Shown here: piece after piece, positions 884 through 12,794 of the stretch
How the letters are laid out: each line of letters begins with the position of its first letter
Position numbering within the stretch: the stretch's first letter is position 1
Source: Clostridiales bacterium
GTDB taxonomy: Bacteria; Bacillota; Clostridia; Christensenellales; CAG-138
Direction: 5' to 3'
NCBI GenBank assembly: GCA_918244965.1
Contig: CAKJYC010000020.1
Location: 1-39,602, forward strand
Length of the DNA stretch: 39,602 nt
Translations under genes and position numbers: made by a program
Notes under the pieces: model-generated
Databases searched by the model: none
Told to the model about the DNA's origin: nothing
What the model saw: the letters and a program-made list of their open reading frames with translations, nothing else

Positions 884-960
884 TGGCGTGCCCGACACGA
901 TTTGAACGTGCGGCCTTCAGAGTCGGAGTCTGACGCTCTATCCAGCTGAGCTACGGGCAC
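884..960 (-). tRNA. tRNA-Arg, anticodon CCG (reads CGG)
   Basis: The cloverleaf is complete on the minus strand. The acceptor stem is GTGCCCG/CGGGCAC with discriminator G and an encoded CCA (884-886). The D arm is GCTC...GAGC, the anticodon stem is TCAGA/TCTGA with loop CTCCGAC, and the T arm carries GTTCAAAT. The anticodon is bases 3-5 of that loop, CCG, so it decodes the arginine codon CGG. A good promoter lies 32 bp upstream. Its last 18 bases are copied at 552-569. Confidence 0.95.
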
Positions 961-3495: not shown

Positions 3496-3544
3496 GAGGA
3501 GCATACATCGCATCAATCCGTCAAATCCGGCGACATGCGCGGCG
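3496..3544. repeat. 49-bp direct repeat, copy A (truncated family I element)
   Basis: Identical over 49 bases to 3597-3645, offset exactly 101 bp. It runs from GAGGAGCATACATCGC to ATGCGCGGCG and includes the 5' arm and loop of family I hairpin H1. The 3' arm and the later hairpins are missing, so this is a partial copy. Between the copies is a 7-bp hairpin GAACGGC-gtc-GCCGTTC. I see no gene between 3360 and 3743. Confidence 0.85.
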
Positions 3545-3596
3545 CCATCCCCCTTTGCCGAATAACGAACGGCGTCGCCGTTCAGCGCGCCCGTTC

Positions 3597-3732
3597 GAGG
3601 AGCATACATCGCATCAATCCGTCAAATCCGGCGACATGCGCGGCGGATTTGACTCCTTGCACCCCGCGCCGCCCGGTGGATTTCAATCCATAGGCGCGGG
3701 GTGAAAACTCGCCGAAATCCTGATTTCGGCGA
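3597..3732 (+). repeat. Family I structured element, complete copy b
   Basis: A 49-bp direct-repeat copy (3597-3645) leads into three hairpins. H1 is GTCAAATCCG (3621-3630) with CGGATTTGAC (3644-3653) around the 13-base loop GCGACATGCGCGG. The linker CCTTGCA follows. H2 has outer arms ACCCCGCGCC (3661-3670) and GGCGCGGGGT (3693-3702) enclosing GCCCGG, a small hairpin TGGATT/AATCCA and TA. After GAAAAC comes H3, TCGCCGAAATC (3709-3719) with GATTTCGGCGA (3722-3732). The same layout recurs on the opposite strand at 8968-9090 with compensatory changes. The transcribed strand is unknown, and H3 could also end the XRE transcript. Confidence 0.75.
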
Positions 3733-3743
3733 AATGCGCAGCG

Positions 3744-4232
3744 CTATTTTGCCTCGTCCATCTTGCCGGTGTAGAGCGCGTGCTCGATCCAGATGCGCAT
3801 GCCGCGGATCGAGCGGTCGAGCGCGGACAGCTTCTGGAGGATCACGTCGAATTCCCTGCGCTCGAAGCTGTTCACGCGGCCGTCCACGGAGATGTCGATC
3901 AGCCGATCGCGCTCCTGCTCCATCGCGTGCAGCGCGGAAAGAAGCTGCACCGTGAGCTGCGGCAGCTCTTTGAGCTCGACCCGCTGGACGTACTTCATGC
4001 CGATCGGACACTCGTGCGTGCAGTAGTAGTTGGAAAGCTCCGCGTTCTCGTAGCCCTGCTCCATCGCAAGCACCTCGTCCGGGTGCGGCGCGCTCTTGCC
4101 GCTCTCGATCTTTTCGATGCGGTCCGCCGTGACAAACTGCAGAAGCTCCCCCGCCGCCTCGCGGGAAAGGCCCTTGTCCTCGCGGCTTTGCTGATAGATG
4201 TTCTTATTCTCCTTGGTCGACCGTCTGCCCAT
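3744..4232 (-). CDS. XRE-family helix-turn-helix regulator with a Cys motif
   Basis: A 162-residue protein with an N-terminal helix-turn-helix of the Cro/C1 type (about 11-60: YQQSREDKGLSREAAGELL, then RIEKIESGKSAPHPDEV). Next comes YYCTHECPIG (69-78), with two Cys and one His spaced as C-x-H-x-C, suggestive of metal or redox sensing. The C-terminal half (about 84-160) is helical with many Arg/Glu, probably for dimerisation. The ribosome site AGGAGG lies 6-7 bases before the ATG. A promoter is at 4259-4287. Targets are unknown; the adjacent divergent membrane-protein gene at 4428 is the simplest candidate. The C-terminal family is familiar from Clostridia but has no named function. Confidence 0.85.
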   Translation of the reverse strand: MGRRSTKENKNIYQQSREDKGLSREAAGELLQFVTADRIEKIESGKSAPHPDEVLAMEQGYENAELSNYYCTHECPIGMKYVQRVELKELPQLTVQLLSALHAMEQERDRLIDISVDGRVNSFERREFDVILQKLSALDRSIRGMRIWIEHALYTGKMDEAK

Positions 4233-4258
4233 CGTGATCCCTCCTTTTTTGTACCTAC

Positions 4259-4287
4259 AGTATACACCCCGCGCGCGCGTTTGAAAA
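4259..4287 (-). promoter_or_regulatory. Possible promoter of the XRE regulator
   Basis: On the minus strand TTTTCA (4282-4287), a 17-base spacer and TATACT (4259-4264). The -35 matches only 4 of 6 consensus bases. Confidence 0.5.
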
Positions 4288-4364
4288 GCGGTAAGCGTGC
4301 GGATTACTGCGCTTTATTTCGCACTGTTTTCGAAATAAACCCGGTTATACCAGACAATACGCCG

Positions 4365-4394
4365 TTGCAGATCGTCCCTCCGCTGTGATATGAT
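4365..4394 (+). promoter_or_regulatory. Promoter of the 4428 membrane protein gene
   Basis: TTGCAG (4365-4370), an 18-base spacer and TATGAT (4389-4394), 33 bp before the ATG. Confidence 0.7.
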
Positions 4395-4427
4395 AGGATC
4401 AGGATCAACAGAGAGAGGAGCGGCCTT

Positions 4428-5180
4428 ATGAGCAATTGCTTTGAACGCGCATTCCAGCGTCGGCTGGATTCTGCGGATTCGTGGACCAAGGCACAGGCGA
4501 AAGCGCTTCGTGCGGTTCCGACAAAAAAGAAGCTCCTGATGATCGGGATCCCGCTGTTGTTTATGGTTCTGTCCGGCGTTTTCCTTGTTCTCGCCCACCG
4601 AACCGAAACGCTCTCCTCGCGTCCGAAAACAGGCTTCCCGGATTCGATCCTGTCGGGATCGTATGATTGGCCGGACGGCGCCGATCTTGACGGCATCGCA
4701 GAGATCGACGGCTATGCCGTTGTGTATTCCGACAAGAGCTGCTTTGCCGTTTTCCGTGACGGCGTTCTTCACCACATGCTTGATGCGCACGGTCACACCT
4801 GCGGCATTGCGGATGACCGGATCTTTCTCATATATAACGGAACCGCTTATCTGTATGATGCAGAGGGCAAGCTGGTTCAAACGGCAGACGCTTCCGCTTT
4901 TCGCAATACGCCGAAGTATAACCGAAGCGAAGCCGTTGTCTCCTCCTATACATATCGCATCCGTCGCACCTTCTCCCGCAATACCGTTGTTGTTGAATCA
5001 GACGGAGAAGAAACAACGTTGCTGATTCAACGACGATTCATCCGAACACTTTATTGCACTGCTGCGTGTATCTGCTTTATGGTCGCGTTTATTGTAGGAT
5101 TGATCGGGCTGATCAAACTCAATAAGGCGACAAAGCTCGTGCAAAGCAGCGAGCAGACAGAGAATAAAAAGCCCTCCTGA
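4428..5180 (+). CDS. Hypothetical membrane-anchored protein with two TM helices
   Basis: Not recognised as a named family. The 250-residue protein has a basic cytoplasmic N-terminus, a TM helix at about 36-56, an extracytoplasmic region of about 150 residues, and a second TM helix at about 206-229 before a charged tail. The external part holds short beta-rich repeats of the type GYAVVYSDKSCFAVFRDG and RIFLIYNGTAYLYDAEG, resembling blades of a small propeller or Ig-like fold; that is inference. AGAGGAG precedes the ATG. It has its own promoter and a perfect terminator, so it is monocistronic. Its base composition is slightly lower in GC than its neighbours. Confidence 0.75.
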   Translation: MSNCFERAFQRRLDSADSWTKAQAKALRAVPTKKKLLMIGIPLLFMVLSGVFLVLAHRTETLSSRPKTGFPDSILSGSYDWPDGADLDGIAEIDGYAVVYSDKSCFAVFRDGVLHHMLDAHGHTCGIADDRIFLIYNGTAYLYDAEGKLVQTADASAFRNTPKYNRSEAVVSSYTYRIRRTFSRNTVVVESDGEETTLLIQRRFIRTLYCTAACICFMVAFIVGLIGLIKLNKATKLVQSSEQTENKKPS

Positions 5181-5192
5181 AGCATATCACGC

Positions 5193-5220
5193 AAAAGCCC
5201 TCCGCACCCGGAGGGCTTTT
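5193..5220 (+). terminator. Intrinsic terminator
   Basis: Perfect 12-bp stem AAAAGCCCTCCG / CGGAGGGCTTTT with a CACC loop; the A/T ends make it functional in either direction. Confidence 0.9.
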
Positions 5221-5275
5221 CATATGCCGCTGAACGGCGCGCTTTGCAAAAAAGTCCCTCTATTTTGCACCGGCG

Positions 5276-5301
5276 CTGCAAATAGCGATCGCCATTTGCA
5301 G
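5276..5301. promoter_or_regulatory. Palindrome upstream of the flotillin gene (possible operator)
   Basis: CTGCAAAT and ATTTGCAG form a perfect 8-bp inverted repeat around a 10-base spacer that itself contains CGATCG. It lies 106 bp before the flotillin start, upstream of a possible TATGAT box at 5335-5340. It is a candidate protein-binding site only. Confidence 0.4.
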
Positions 5302-5407
5302 ACGGCGCGTCTTTATTGCACGCGGCGGGTGCGTTATGATGAAGCCGTAAACAAGAGGCGGACAAAACCGCCGGGGCACTGGGGACTTTGGAAAGGAGTG
5401 AAAAGCA

Positions 5408-6976
5408 GTGTCGTTTATTGCAGAGCACACGGGCCTGATCATCGGGCTGGTCGCGGCCGCGATCACCATGATCGCGATCATCGTCAGCGGCTACGTCAAA
5501 GCGCCGCCGGACAAGGCGTACATCATTTCCGGCATCAAAAAGACGCCGAAGATCCTGATCGGCCGCGCGGGCATCAAGCTGCCGTTCTTTGAGAGAAAGG
5601 ACACGTTGGTGCTGAAGCAGATCAGTATCGACATCAAGACGAACGGCTATGTGCCGACGCTTGACTTCATCGGCGTGGACATCGACGCGGTCGCAAAGGT
5701 GCGGCTCAAGACCGATCCGGAAGGCATCAAGATCGCGATGAAGAACTTCCTGAACATGTCCGAGGAAGCGATCGCAAAGGCGCTGACCGACTCGCTGCAG
5801 GGCAACATGCGTGAGATCATCGGCACGGTCAAGCTGAAGGAGCTGAACACGGACCGCAAGAAGTTCGGCGACGAGGTGCAGCAGAAGGCGCAGACCGACA
5901 TGAACGCTTTGGGCGTTGAGATCATCTCCTGCAACATCCAGAAGATCGAGGATGAAAAGGGTCTGATTGTCGCCCTCGGCCAGGACAACATGTCGCAGAT
6001 CCAGAAGGACGCGTCGATCGCAAAGGCGCAGGCGGAGCGCGACGTGGCGATCGCCGAGGCGGAAGCAAAGCGGATGGCAAACGAAGCGCAGGTAGCTGCG
6101 CAGACCGAGATCGCATCGCGGCAGAACGAGCTGAAGATCCGCGAAGCCGAGCTGAAGCGGGCGTCCGACGTGAAGCAGGCCGAGGCCGACGCGGCGTACG
6201 AGATCCAGCAGCAGGAGCAGCGCAAGACGATCGAGGTCGCCACGGCGAACGCGAACATTGCGCGGCAGGAACGCGAGATCGAGCTGAAGAAGAAGGACGT
6301 CGAGGTGACCGAGCAGACGCTCGAAGCCGAGATCAAGAAGAAGGCGGAGGCCGAGAAATTCGCCCGTCAGCAGAAGGCGGAAGCGGAGCTGTTTGAACGG
6401 CAGCGCAAGGCGGAGGCCGAGAAGTTCGAGCGCGAAAAGGCCGCCGAGATCCGCCGCATCCACGCGGAGGCCGAAAAGTTCGAGCGTGAAAAGGAGGCCG
6501 AGGCGCAGCGCGTGCAGGCCGAGGCCGAAAAGTACGCGAAGATGCAGGAGGCCGAAGGCATCAAGGCGGTCGGCGAGGCGGAGGCTGCGGCGATCGAAGC
6601 CCGCGGCATCGCGGAGGCAGAGGCGCTTGAAAAGAAGGCCGAGGCCATGAAGAAATACGGTCAGGCGGCCATGATGGAGATGATCGTGAAGGCGCTGCCC
6701 GAAATGGCGGCGGCGATCGCAAAGCCGCTCGAATCCATCGACAAGGTGACGATCATCGACGGCGGCACCGGCGGCAGCGGCGTGGACACGATGGGGACCT
6801 TCGTACCGAGCGTGCTCGCCCGCACGATCGCCACGATGAAGGAGGTCACCGGACTGGACCTTGTGGACGTCATGAAGGCCGGTACCTACGATGCGAAGGT
6901 GACCCGCAACGTGACGGTGCAGGGCGACCCGCAGGGCGCGATCAACAGTGCGATCCATCCAGAACCCGCCGTATAA
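5408..6976 (+). CDS. Flotillin-like SPFH-domain protein
   Basis: A membrane-microdomain scaffold of the FloT/YuaG type. The 522 residues comprise a TM or hairpin segment at about 8-29, an SPFH domain at about 30-190 (VSGYVKAPPDKAYIISG... through LGVEIISCNIQKIED), a very long Ala/Glu/Lys coiled coil from about 196 to 417 with repeated AEAEKFERE-type units, and a Gly-rich C-terminal region (IIDGGTGGSG). The start is GTG at 5408, with AAAGGAG about 9 bases upstream. The usual partner, an NfeD-type protein, is not adjacent. A bidirectional terminator separates it from clpX. Local base composition is that of the neighbours. Confidence 0.93.
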   Translation: MSFIAEHTGLIIGLVAAAITMIAIIVSGYVKAPPDKAYIISGIKKTPKILIGRAGIKLPFFERKDTLVLKQISIDIKTNGYVPTLDFIGVDIDAVAKVRLKTDPEGIKIAMKNFLNMSEEAIAKALTDSLQGNMREIIGTVKLKELNTDRKKFGDEVQQKAQTDMNALGVEIISCNIQKIEDEKGLIVALGQDNMSQIQKDASIAKAQAERDVAIAEAEAKRMANEAQVAAQTEIASRQNELKIREAELKRASDVKQAEADAAYEIQQQEQRKTIEVATANANIARQEREIELKKKDVEVTEQTLEAEIKKKAEAEKFARQQKAEAELFERQRKAEAEKFEREKAAEIRRIHAEAEKFEREKEAEAQRVQAEAEKYAKMQEAEGIKAVGEAEAAAIEARGIAEAEALEKKAEAMKKYGQAAMMEMIVKALPEMAAAIAKPLESIDKVTIIDGGTGGSGVDTMGTFVPSVLARTIATMKEVTGLDLVDVMKAGTYDAKVTRNVTVQGDPQGAINSAIHPEPAV

Positions 6977-6986
6977 AGACAACGTA

Positions 6987-7020
6987 AAAGCAGTCCTCTT
7001 TCGAGGGCTGCTTTATTTTT
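6987..7020 (+). terminator. Intrinsic terminator between flotillin and clpX
   Basis: AAAGCAGTCCTC / GAGGGCTGCTTT stem with a TTTC loop and one G-T wobble, followed by ATTTTT. The convergent clpX gene may use the opposite strand. Confidence 0.85.
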
Positions 7021-7022
7021 CG

Positions 7023-8354
7023 TTATTCCGCTTTCTTCACGGCCGGAGCCGCCTTGGCGCGGGTCTTGCGCGCGGCGGGCAGCTTGGGCTGCGGATCGCC
7101 GTCGCGGATGAGCCGCGGCGGCGCGAGCTTGTTGATCGTGTCCGCCGTGATCTCGCAGGTCTTGACGCCCTCCTGGGACGGAATGTCGTACATGATGTTC
7201 AGCATCACGTCCTCCATGATCGCGCGCAGGCCCCTCGCACCGGTCTTGCGTTCGATCGCCTTCTTCGCGACCTCCTTGAGCGCGTCTTCGGTGATGACAA
7301 GGTCCACGCCGTCCATCTCGAACAGGCGGCGATACTGTCTTGTCAGCGCGTTTTTCGGCTCGGTGAGGATCTGGATCAGCGCCTCCTCGGTGAGGTTTTC
7401 CAGCGTGACAATGATCGGAACGCGGCCCACGAATTCGGGGATCAGTCCGAACTTTAATAGGTCCTCCGGCAGAATGCTCTTCAGGATCGTACCGACGTCC
7501 TGCTGCTTTTGCGAACGCACCTCGGCGCCGAAGCCCATGAGCTTACTGCCCGTGCGCTTCTGGATGATCTTGTCGATGCCGGTGAACGCACCGCCCACGA
7601 TGAACAGGATGTTCGTCGTGTCGATCTGCAGGCATTCCTGCTGCGGATGCTTTCTGCCGCCCTGCGGGGGAACGTTTGCCACGGTGCCTTCGAGGATCTT
7701 CAGAAGCGCCTGCTGCACGCCCTCGCCGGAAACGTCGCGCGTGATGGAGACGTTCTCGCCCTTTCTGGCGATCTTGTCGATCTCGTCGATGTAGACGATG
7801 CCCATCTGCGCCTTCGGAATGTCGTAATCCGCCGCCTGGATGAGCTTTAAGAGAATGTTCTCCACGTCGTCGCCGACGTAGCCGGCCTCGGTCAGCGCGG
7901 TCGCGTCCGCCACGGCGAACGGCACGTCGAGGATCTTCGCAAGCGTCTGCGCGAGCAGCGTTTTGCCGCAGCCCGTCGGTCCGAGCATGATGATGTTGCT
8001 CTTCTGCAGTTCGACGTCGTCGGTCTTGTCGCCCATCATGCGGATGCGCTTGTAGTGGTTGTACACCGCGACGGCCAGCGCCTTCTTTGCGCTCTCCTGT
8101 CCGATCACGTACTGATCGAGCGCGGCGACGATCTCCGCGGGCTTCGGAATGTCCTCCTTGCTGTAGGCCTGCTGCGCGTCCTTCGGCTGCTCGTAGCGCA
8201 TATCCTCCTGCACGATCTCACGGCACAGCTCGACGCACTCGTTGCAGATATACACGTTCGGGCCCGCAATGAGCTTGCGGACCTCGCTGCGCTGCTTGCC
8301 GCAAAAGCTGCAGCGTACCTTATCAAAGCTGTCTCTGTCTCTTGTGCCTGCCAT
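7023..8354 (-). CDS. clpX: ATP-dependent Clp protease ATP-binding subunit ClpX
   Basis: AAA+ unfoldase that recognises tagged proteins and feeds them to ClpP. The 443-residue protein has an N-terminal zinc domain with C15, C18, C37 and C40 (CSFC...CNEC), Walker A GPTGCGKT (125-132), pore loop GYVG (158-161) and Walker B IVYIDE (186-191). The C-terminus carries an extra basic Ala/Lys/Pro tail ([20 protein letters not shown]) beyond the usual end, unusual but low-complexity. AGGAG precedes the ATG. It starts 3 bases after the clpP stop, so the two are co-translated. Confidence 0.97.
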
Positions 8355-8357
8355 GCG

Positions 8358-8942
8358 TTATCTCCTCGGTGCAATGATCTCGTCCACGATGCCGTAGGCC
8401 TTGGCCTGTTCGGCGTCCATGAAGTTGTCGCGCTCGGTGTCCTGCTCGATCCGTTCGAGCGGCTGGCCCGTGCGATCCGAAAGGATGCGGTTCAGCTGAT
8501 CCTTGATGCGAAGGATCTGCTCCGCGTGGATGCGGATATCCGACGCCTGCCCCTGCGCGCCGCCGCTCGGCTGGTGGATCATGATCTCGGCGTTCGGCAG
8601 CGTCTTGCGCTTGCCCTTTGCGCCCGCCGCCAGCAGGAACGCGCCCATGCTCGCCGCGAGGCCGACGCAGATCGTCGCGCATTCGCAGCGCAGATACTGC
8701 ATCGTGTCGTAGATCGCCAGACCCGCGCTGACGGAGCCGCCGGGGCTGTTGATATACAGGAAAATGTCCTTGTCCGGATCCTCCGCTTCCAGAAACAGCA
8801 TCTGCGCGATGACGAGATTTGCGGTGTCGTCGTCGATCGGGCCGCCGAGGAAGATGATGCGATCCTTCAGCAAGCGCGACCAGATGTCATAGGAGCGCTC
8901 ACCGTGGCCGGACTGCTCGACCACCATCGGTATCAGGTTCAT
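8358..8942 (-). CDS. clpP: ATP-dependent Clp protease proteolytic subunit ClpP
   Basis: Serine peptidase that forms the tetradecameric chamber used with ClpX. With the start at 8942 it is 194 residues long, the family norm, and the catalytic triad falls at Ser98 (GLAASMGAF), His123 (MIHQPSGG) and Asp172 (RDNF). The ATG at 8942 is chosen because AAGGAGG lies 8 bases before it; a longer reading from TTG at 8960 would place that ribosome site inside the protein. It lies between tig and clpX. The 236-bp gap to tig is filled by a family I repeat element, so the classic tig-clpP-clpX operon is interrupted. Confidence 0.97.
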
Positions 8943-8967
8943 TTCGGATACCTCCTTCAAGATCTCA

Positions 8968-9090
8968 CTCTGTCAAAAGGTCTTTTGACAGAGCGGTTTT
9001 CAGCTTCTCCCTAAAATGCTGCCGCATTTCCGGGCGGGAGAAGCTGCAAGGTGTCAAATTCACCGCGCATGTCGCTGAATTTGACGGATT
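8968..9090 (-). repeat. Family I structured element, copy c (tig-clpP gap)
   Basis: Read on the minus strand it has the same layout as 3621-3732. H1 is GTCAAATTCA / TGAATTTGAC with the identical 13-base loop GCGACATGCGCGG (9053-9085). Then comes CCTTGCA. H2 is CAGCTTCTCCC / GGGAGAAGCTG (9001-9046) enclosing GCCCGG, a small hairpin AAATGC-GGCA-GCATTT and TA. After GAAAAC, H3 is CTCTGTCAAAAG / CTTTTGACAGAG (8968-8993). The stems differ from the other copy by paired changes while loops and linkers are unchanged. It would be part of a tig-clpP transcript if that operon is continuous. From 9091 to 9178 is further non-coding repeat-like sequence. Confidence 0.75.
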
Positions 9091-9178
9091 TCTTCTCCGC
9101 TCTTTCTCCGAAGGACTCGTTCGCGCGTTTACAACGCGCCTGCGATGCTTGCAGAGTATTGCGAATTGATGCGCCGTT

Positions 9179-11609: not shown

Positions 11610-12794
11610 ATGAGCGACCGCGGCGACCGCATTCGTGAATATCTGCGTGAAAGCGCCGACCGTAAACTGACGATCGGTCGAATGACCGTATCGCGGCTTG
11701 CGATCTTCGGCGCCGGCGCCGGTATCGTCGTCATCGCGATCGTCGCGCTCGGCCTGCTCCTGTTCGGCAAGCGCACGACGGGGCTCAAGTTCAGCCGTGC
11801 GGACGTCGTGACCGGCTATTCGTACCGCATGAAGGACGACCGCATCACCTATCGCACGGAGGACCGCATCTATACCTACGACTGCGCAAAAAACGTGTCG
11901 ACCTATTTTGCCGCACCGCGCATTCAGGGCTATGACAGCTCCTCGACGATGACCGTCGTGTATGCGGGTTCGCAGTTCCAGATCCAGGGCGCGGGCGAAG
12001 CGCTGACGCTGACGAACGGCACGATCCTTGACGTGCGCGCGGGACGCAATTACGCCGCGCTGCTGTACAAAACGCCCGGCGCGGACCGCAACGAGCGCTT
12101 CATCCTGATCATCGACAAGAACATGCACTCGGTCGCGACGCTGTCGTTCAAGGACGGCGACGTTGTGGCGTTCGATTTTGTCTCCGCAGGCTCGACTGAG
12201 CTTCTGTGGGTCTCCACGATGGACGTCGGCCAGTTCACCGAGGAATGCATCGTCCGCATCTACGACTGCGGCCGCAGCGGCGCGATGATCCACTACACCT
12301 CGCCGTTCTACAACCAGGCGATCTACGACCTGTATCTTTCGGATCGCTGCATGTTCCTGATCGGCACGCATTCGATCATCCGCTACGACCGCGAGGACGA
12401 CGGCGGCTTTTCCGCCGAGCGCGACCGCGTGCGCGTCTACGGCTCCACGATCGTGGACTTTGCGGCGGGCGCCGAGACCGCATACTTCATTGCGTTGCCG
12501 GTGGCTGCCGAGGGCGAGGAAAACAGCCTCGTCCGGCTGATCACGATCTCCGAGACCGACGACCTGTGGTCCAACGTCATGCAGAAATACATGCCCTCCC
12601 CGATCGTCGGCGCATTTCTGCACGGTGGCAGTATCTGCGTGTTTACCAGGGAAAACTTCCTGCAATACTCATATGCCGGCAAGAAGCTCAACGATCTTGA
12701 ACCGGCGCATGCGCCCGTCGCCGCATTCCGCTACGGCGAGGACGGCTTCTTCCTCGTGACCGAGCAGGGCGCGTATCGCGTGACGCTCGGATAA
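11610..12794 (+). CDS. DUF5711-like membrane-anchored beta-propeller protein
   Basis: The 394-residue protein has a basic N-terminus (to about 29), one TM helix (about 30-52) and a large external region of short beta repeats. Examples are GYSYRMKDDRITYRTEDRIYTYDC (residues about 69-92, quoted only by position otherwise) and the later RYGEDGFFLVTEQGAYRV end. This resembles the DUF5711 family of Clostridia, which is often encoded beside a CvpA-like membrane protein, as here (18-bp gap on each side). No enzymatic residues are evident; a sensing or scaffolding role is inference. GGAGA precedes the ATG by 9 bases. Confidence 0.72.
   Translation: MSDRGDRIREYLRESADRKLTIGRMTVSRLAIFGAGAGIVVIAIVALGLLLFGKRTTGLKFSRADVVTGYSYRMKDDRITYRTEDRIYTYDCAKNVSTYFAAPRIQGYDSSSTMTVVYAGSQFQIQGAGEALTLTNGTILDVRAGRNYAALLYKTPGADRNERFILIIDKNMHSVATLSFKDGDVVAFDFVSAGSTELLWVSTMDVGQFTEECIVRIYDCGRSGAMIHYTSPFYNQAIYDLYLSDRCMFLIGTHSIIRYDREDDGGFSAERDRVRVYGSTIVDFAAGAETAYFIALPVAAEGEENSLVRLITISETDDLWSNVMQKYMPSPIVGAFLHGGSICVFTRENFLQYSYAGKKLNDLEPAHAPVAAFRYGEDGFFLVTEQGAYRVTLG

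Follow-up and report, generated by a model that had tools for sequence, protein, structure and literature searches.

A stretch of 39,602 nt from contig CAKJYC010000020.1 of a Clostridiales bacterium (family CAG-138), here called the window, carries two copies of a short element built of three hairpins, H1, H2 and H3, copy 1 on the plus strand (nt 3621–3732) and copy 2 on the minus strand (nt 8966–9085). Comparison with related genomes suggests that these hairpins are probably worn members of a family, widespread in gut Clostridia, of non-autonomous mobile elements similar to miniature inverted-repeat transposable elements (MITEs), which would insert at intrinsic terminator hairpins and duplicate them. 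This reading is carried by the spread of the element across genomes, the covariation of its stems, complete elements with terminal repeats, duplications at most of the complete copies, and one empty site.

Complete copies were recounted under a single end-pattern rule in the loci fetched from other families, mainly from genomes G414 and G237 (family f4). The flanks share 11–37 nt in 17 of the 22 complete copies, 13 of these sharing at least 22 nt, and in 462 comparisons between flanks of different copies the shared stretch was at most 10 nt. When no more than two substitutions per end are allowed, the duplication is found in 15 of 16 copies. The end pattern recovers neither L332 nor the 152-nt copy L370, which is duplicated. 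In recent copies from this second family of the order the duplicated sequence is a direct repeat of a host terminator hairpin, and the exact hairpin duplications are 22–37 bp long. The duplicated copies measure 154–302 nt, most of them 205–208 nt (one further copy, 152 nt). Short and devoid of any coding gene, as is a MITE, the element is bounded in G414 and its relatives by imperfect terminal inverted repeats, CAGACTGTTGACAAA and TTTTTCAACGATCTG. Separate end-pattern counts, which overlap the recount, gave duplications at all 12 complete copies from about 0.8 Mb, where flanks of different copies shared no more than 10 nt in 132 comparisons, and at 2 of 2 others; regions truncated by the ends of the fetched stretches or not recovered by the end patterns are excluded, 13 of 25 from the former count and 14 from the latter. 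At L311, L313 and L314 in G414 the H1 loop of the element is enlarged by an insert of about 100 nt, which gives a length of 302 nt where the copy is complete.

At one orthologous site a single hairpin in G237 corresponds to hairpin, element and hairpin in G414. This empty-site comparison was feasible for one of the 12 copies, the one for which both flanks are adjacent in the other genome. When the window was first interpreted from its letters alone (below, the sequence-only reading), a palindrome-based mobile unit was one of the options offered, and with terminal inverted repeats, hairpin duplications and an empty site it is now the best supported of them. In 10 of the 12 copies of G414 and G237 the stop codon of an opposite-strand gene lies 32–73 nt to the right. 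A scan for duplicated hairpins that made no use of the element returned 22 pairs, of which 11 are these elements or a relative of about 160 nt with similar ends; the rest are accounted for by a local tandem array, by inner hairpins belonging to two adjacent copies, and by two other cases. Another short element, about 160 nt long and bounded by CAGACTGTCGATAAACCCAT and CAGACCGCTGAAAAAGGGG, likewise lies beside terminator hairpins in G414 (L372, about nt 12584–12744; L435; L438; L420).

A complete copy is also found in the genus of the window. This copy (L059, at G007:C7:6741) is 235 nt long and begins with CAGCGTGTCAAAAAA, has the terminal repeats CAGCGTGTCAAAAAA and ..TTTTTAGACAGACTG, contains an additional upstream hairpin (H0) followed by H1, H2 and H3, and is flanked on both sides by CACCTTCCCCTCAAGGGGAAGGCT, a hairpin duplication of 24 bp. 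Remnants were recognised by eye at three other loci of the genus (L074, L045 and L033), while in the wider family a left end and diverged hairpin copies were seen, likewise by eye, at two of 30 divergent loci inspected (L264 and L278).

The element is widespread. A DNA search of the source genome gave 13 matches, and a search with covariance model R1, a check that had been proposed along with the sequence-only reading, yielded 12 full-length copies. With the same model the element is found in 20 of 23 genomes of the genus (absent from G005, G017 and G018), and at E <= 0.001 in 57 of 103 genomes and 18 of 26 genera of the family, some of these being single weak matches. In a sample of the order, searched with stricter filters at E <= 1e-5, 19 of 396 genomes were positive, eight of which belong to five other families. 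A pattern search of public genomes returned at least 115 stretches, nearly all from assemblies of Clostridia or Bacillota and many from ruminant guts. The H1 pattern had no match in viral contigs, the G414 element no DNA match in plasmids, and copy 1 no DNA match in phages. By eye, copies in other genera of the family show the same order of hairpins plus extra ones, and in several the H3 has the form AAAAAAGC..GCTTTTTT, which is terminator-like in both directions.

An alignment of 59 copies has 36 predicted pairs, 28 of which show changes on both sides. In the predicted structure 96.0% of cells are paired as against 79.6% in shuffles, and the covariation score is 0.467 as against 0.157, a test that favours the structure, as the latter was derived from the same alignment. 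None of 500 shuffles reached as high a covariation, and all six versions in which the structure was slid along the alignment scored far lower. The covariation thus bears out the proposal that a fold is conserved, as opposed to a repeat having simply been copied, and pairing is kept, not lost, in the further copies. The strand on which the fold exists was addressed by counting wobble pairs in 152 and in 127 distinct copies, parsed slightly differently. On the strand assigned by the sequence-only reading H2 favours G-U over A-C, with 48:15 cells in the outer and 55:14 in the inner stem under the first parsing and 68:42 in the outer stem under the second; grouped by site, the ratios are 64:40 (p = 0.012) for the outer and 52:17 (p = 1.5e-5) for the inner stem. 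H3 has no such bias (35:48, grouped by site), and H1 (17:14 cells) varies too little to decide the strand. The bias in H2 therefore shows that this hairpin folds as one strand, either RNA or single-stranded DNA. In several genomes (L085, L086, L098 and L122) H2 contains, at a roughly constant position, foreign sequence that is similar among them, AGGTCGCAATC..GATTGCTCCCCGCTC.

The features of the two window copies are as follows.

nt 3621–3653, plus strand: H1 of copy 1, a 10-bp stem (3621–3630 with 3644–3653) and a 13-nt loop, GCGACATGCGCGG; from sequence, folding and alignment.
nt 3654–3659, plus strand: conserved linker between H1 and H2 of copy 1, (T/A)CCTTG, here TCCTTG; from sequence and alignment.
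nt 3660–3703, plus strand: H2 of copy 1, with outer stem, internal loop and inner hairpin; from sequence, folding and pair counts.
nt 3704–3708, plus strand: linker AAAAC of copy 1 (GTTTT on the minus strand); from sequence and folding.
nt 3709–3732, plus strand: H3 of copy 1; from sequence and folding.
nt 3567–3583, plus strand: H0, the hairpin upstream of copy 1 (GAACGGCGTCGCCGTTC).
nt 3496–3544, plus strand: truncated tandem copy ahead of copy 1, comprising only the 5' part (5' flank, 5' arm of H1, and loop).
nt 9053–9085, minus strand: H1 of copy 2; from sequence and folding.
nt 9001–9046, minus strand: H2 of copy 2; from sequence and folding.
nt 8966–8995, minus strand: H3 of copy 2; from sequence and folding.
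nt 9122–9140, minus strand: H0, the hairpin upstream of copy 2 (GGCGCGTTGTAAACGCGCG).

Both sites fold into three hairpins on opposite strands, as the sequence-only reading had it, with z-scores of -6.02 (copy 1) and -7.37 (copy 2); none of 200 dinucleotide shuffles of either copy folds as well. That reading was also correct in having two of the ten H1 pairs switched between the copies, and folding confirms that H2 and H3 pair in both despite their different sequences. Its statement that all linkers are identical holds except for the linker between H1 and H2, the first base of which is T in one copy and A in the other, and it did not mention H0 or the truncated tandem copy. The internal loop of H2 in copy 1 places GCCCG(G) on the 5' side opposite a single unpaired A on the 3' side, and the 3' arm of H3 is the counterpart of the right terminal repeat of complete relatives. 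H0 is present in many copies, and lies about 35–40 nt upstream of H1 in both window copies and in L059.

Genomic context was compared for 137 copies with a recognised H3 from the genus and near relatives, 130 of which also had a called right-hand gene (calls were based on codon scores trained on 11 open reading frames of the window). The right-hand gene is on the opposite strand in 105 of the 130 copies, and in 84 the stop codon of this opposite-strand gene is 1–14 nt from H3; on the strand of the right-hand gene the order is stop codon, H3 and T-rich linker. Copy 1 conforms, its H3 being 11 nt from the stop codon of a minus-strand gene (nt 3744–4232). The excess of small hairpins in the interval from H3 to the stop codon (20 of 118; in shuffled sequences 10 of 200, at positions further downstream 11 of 120) is too weak a signal to use.

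Several observations weigh against a mobile family that targets and duplicates terminators. Five of the 22 complete copies have no duplication; in one of these, L322, well-matched ends are bordered by two different hairpins, and the remaining four fit an end pattern only if three substitutions are tolerated, and may be truncated or chance matches. By eye, L332 also lies between unlike hairpins. A gene ends on the left as well in seven of the 12 copies of G414 and G237, and the hairpin duplicated at L059 is, by eye, itself a common repeat in the genus. Neither a left terminal repeat nor a hairpin duplication was found at the window copies, and in a comparison of 118 window-like copies the two flanks of a copy had, with few exceptions, no more in common than flanks taken from different copies. 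Copy 2 departs from the stop-codon context, lying between tig and clpP and on their strand, with the clpP start codon about 20 nt beyond its H3. A consensus scan did not recognise H3 as a terminator in the window, the linker having too few T residues, and copies next to a stop codon have an A-tract only a little richer in A (at least five A in 18 of 72 copies, against 6 of 48). No intact autonomous element, which would combine terminal repeats with a gene, emerged from scans for duplicated hairpins. The H3 arm recurs on the left in 5 of 120 window-like copies, with 0.45 expected. Apart from L059 and the loci with remnants, window-like copies have no duplication signal; on the mobile reading their left end and duplication would have been lost by erosion.

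An alternative is that the hairpins constitute a structured non-coding RNA, or a 3' or intergenic RNA family, under selection for an RNA function, with their spread being incidental. The 28 pairs changed on both sides, the one-strand wobble preference of H2, and the pairing kept (by eye) despite stem differences between orthologous copies in the tig-clpP gap would all be expected of such an RNA. The wobble bias fits folded single-stranded DNA equally well, however, and is not seen in H1 or H3, while the terminal repeats and target duplications of the complete relatives point to mobility. No promoter-like site was detected by a consensus scan near either window copy, and this, together with several copies (by eye) situated directly behind the terminator of another gene, at about 15–20 nt, makes an autonomous gene for the non-coding RNA considered by the sequence-only reading less likely. 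The proteins encoded to the right of the copies are diverse, 150 of them forming 90 clusters; this speaks for dispersal and against the RNA alternative, and makes a cis-regulatory role in a fixed set of genes unlikely. The sequence-only reading recognised no named family, and in scans at gathering and relaxed thresholds no Rfam family reached its threshold on the element in the window or at the relatives' loci; three hits far below threshold (E 0.05–0.87) overlap or adjoin it in L262, L277 and L268. On the whole, an RNA family is an unlikely explanation. The sole Rfam match of the window at the gathering threshold is a tRNA gene (nt 887–960, minus strand), and in relatives malK-I RNA and a TPP riboswitch were matched at L277 (nt 49–228) and L272 (nt 131–220).

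Compensatory stems might also arise without selection on folding, if template switching during replication perfects palindromes. Stems that are fully swapped between near-identical linkers, and an H3 without strand bias, are what this process would leave, yet the copying of one arm from the other does not favour G-U over A-C on one strand, as is observed in H2. Such switching, distinctly improbable as the source of the pattern, is compatible with mobility, and the two may act jointly.

Repetitive extragenic palindromic (REP) sequences and the bacterial interspersed mosaic elements (BIME) formed with them are non-autonomous hairpins near stop codons, as is the element described here, and are associated with REP-associated tyrosine transposases (RAYT). 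Movement by such a Y1 HUH transposase, using single-stranded DNA hairpins, would suit the hairpin anatomy, the intergenic position near stop codons and the one-strand wobble bias, and divergent RAYT-like proteins occur in the genus. No association was found, however: the H1 loop is absent from the 11 examined of 12 fetched Y1_Tnp loci (up to 1.5 kb on each side), and G016 has 21 copies of the element and no Y1_Tnp match. In addition, complete copies have terminal inverted repeats and long target duplications, which, to our knowledge, Y1 enzymes are not expected to produce. A RAYT is on present evidence rejected as the partner, and a REP-like origin is very improbable. The RAYT-like proteins (L291, L289, L286 and L292, all in the genus of the window) have weak Y1_Tnp scores and probably serve other palindromes.

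Hardly credible, finally, is the view that H3 is each gene's own terminator and only H1 and H2 form an adjoining repeat. In its favour, the sequence of H3 differs wholly between copies, even at one site, and H3 is often beside stop codons. H3 alone, lacking H1 and H2, is present in the tig-clpP gap of G009 and G015 (by eye). Against this view, which was rejected on these counts, H3-like hairpins number 73 within 140 nt of an H1 loop and 3 elsewhere, and H3 is accordingly assigned to the element. A common consensus also links H3 to the right terminal repeat, and in complete elements H3 adjoins the host hairpin.

Among 22 tig-clpP loci compared, 20 were informative, seven with the element and 12 with none; G016 retains a remnant (by eye), and a loop-like match flagged in G017 is without the element. 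At the site of copy 1, an unrelated hairpin replaces H3 in G010, G015 and G013 (by eye), all of which retain H1, while H2 is retained in G010 and G015 and broken in G013; in G009 the site has an ordinary terminator and no element (by eye).

If the hairpins do represent a MITE-like family, a complete copy, mostly 205–240 nt, would run from a left terminal repeat of the CAGACTGTYGAMAAA type through H0, H1 (conserved loop) and H2 (GCCCGG internal loop) to H3, the 3' arm of which would form the right terminal repeat. Insertion would take place at an intrinsic terminator hairpin, usually that of an opposite-strand gene. Recent insertions usually have the whole hairpin on both sides, a pattern that would result if the two strands were cut at opposite hairpin bases before the gap was filled. 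H1 and H2 are probably the folded structures that a trans-acting transposase recognises. The window copies would be old members that have lost the left terminal repeat and the duplication, and in the genus and near relatives an H3 beside a stop codon may act as a replacement terminator for the gene.

More tentatively, transposition may be directed by structure, with the terminator hairpin itself as the target, the strands cut at its opposite bases, and the element carrying its own terminator, such that insertions replace native terminators across a bacterial order. Under this proposal the duplication would be one hairpin long whatever the sequence, because of where the strands are cut, and the gene that is hit would keep a stop signal, because the element brings one. 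We know of no described element with a whole-hairpin duplication at both flanks, and the titles and abstracts returned by searches of open-licence papers contained no description of a mobile element that duplicates terminator hairpins. If correct, recognition of terminators by shape, coupled to their duplication, would be a new mode of target selection. It would account for the spread of small elements to many sites with little harm, make terminator turnover traceable in a large, mostly uncultured group, and raise the question of which transposase can cleave both strands at a hairpin base whatever the hairpin's sequence.

As to a partner enzyme, about 1.4 Mb of G414 contains an ISL3-family gene (L417, nt 5654–6719; PF01610, E 1.2e-43), incomplete and covering model positions 67–322 of 370. 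The ends on either side of it are of the CAGACTGT type and abut two unlike terminator hairpins; one of these ends, CAGACTGTCAAAGAAG, agrees in 16 of 16 bases with the left end of element L355. The relic protein has no second match in the fetched sequence. As the gene is incomplete and the two flanking hairpins differ from each other, a causal link to the element is unproven, and the relic is regarded as a lead only. ISL3 elements reportedly produce duplications of 8 bp, whereas those found here are as long as a hairpin. Domain PF13751, which we take to be that of IS1182-type transposases, was rejected as a candidate, with no matches in G414, G237 and G438 (genus g108) and matches in 5 of 24 genomes overall.

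Among known systems, the pneumococcal repeats BOX, RUP and SPRITE are similar in being short and gene-free, with terminal inverted repeats, strong secondary structure and many dispersed copies, and BOX is described as modular and SPRITE as resembling a Rho-independent terminator (PMC3049150, PMC10969869). Unlike these, the present element targets a host terminator hairpin and duplicates the whole of it, so that the length of the duplication varies, and in its internal hairpins covarying stems are combined with conserved loops and linkers. A terminator stem-loop is part of the target of group IIC introns (PMC7161350), which thus likewise insert beside intrinsic terminator hairpins; their insertion after intrinsic terminators is reported by Robart (2007). 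These introns are far longer than the element, which differs in having terminal inverted repeats and hairpin duplications and gave no Rfam intron match. Insertion sequences that target REP sequences share palindrome-directed insertion, and are reported to insert inside the palindrome and to produce no direct repeats (ISPa11) or repeats of 2 bp (ISPpu9/10) or 6 bp (ISRm22) (PMC1525189). In the element described here, by contrast, the whole palindrome is duplicated. Tandem arrangement, as ahead of copy 1 of the window, is also seen at L008 (G000, contig C80), where copies of the element follow one another about 16 nt apart.

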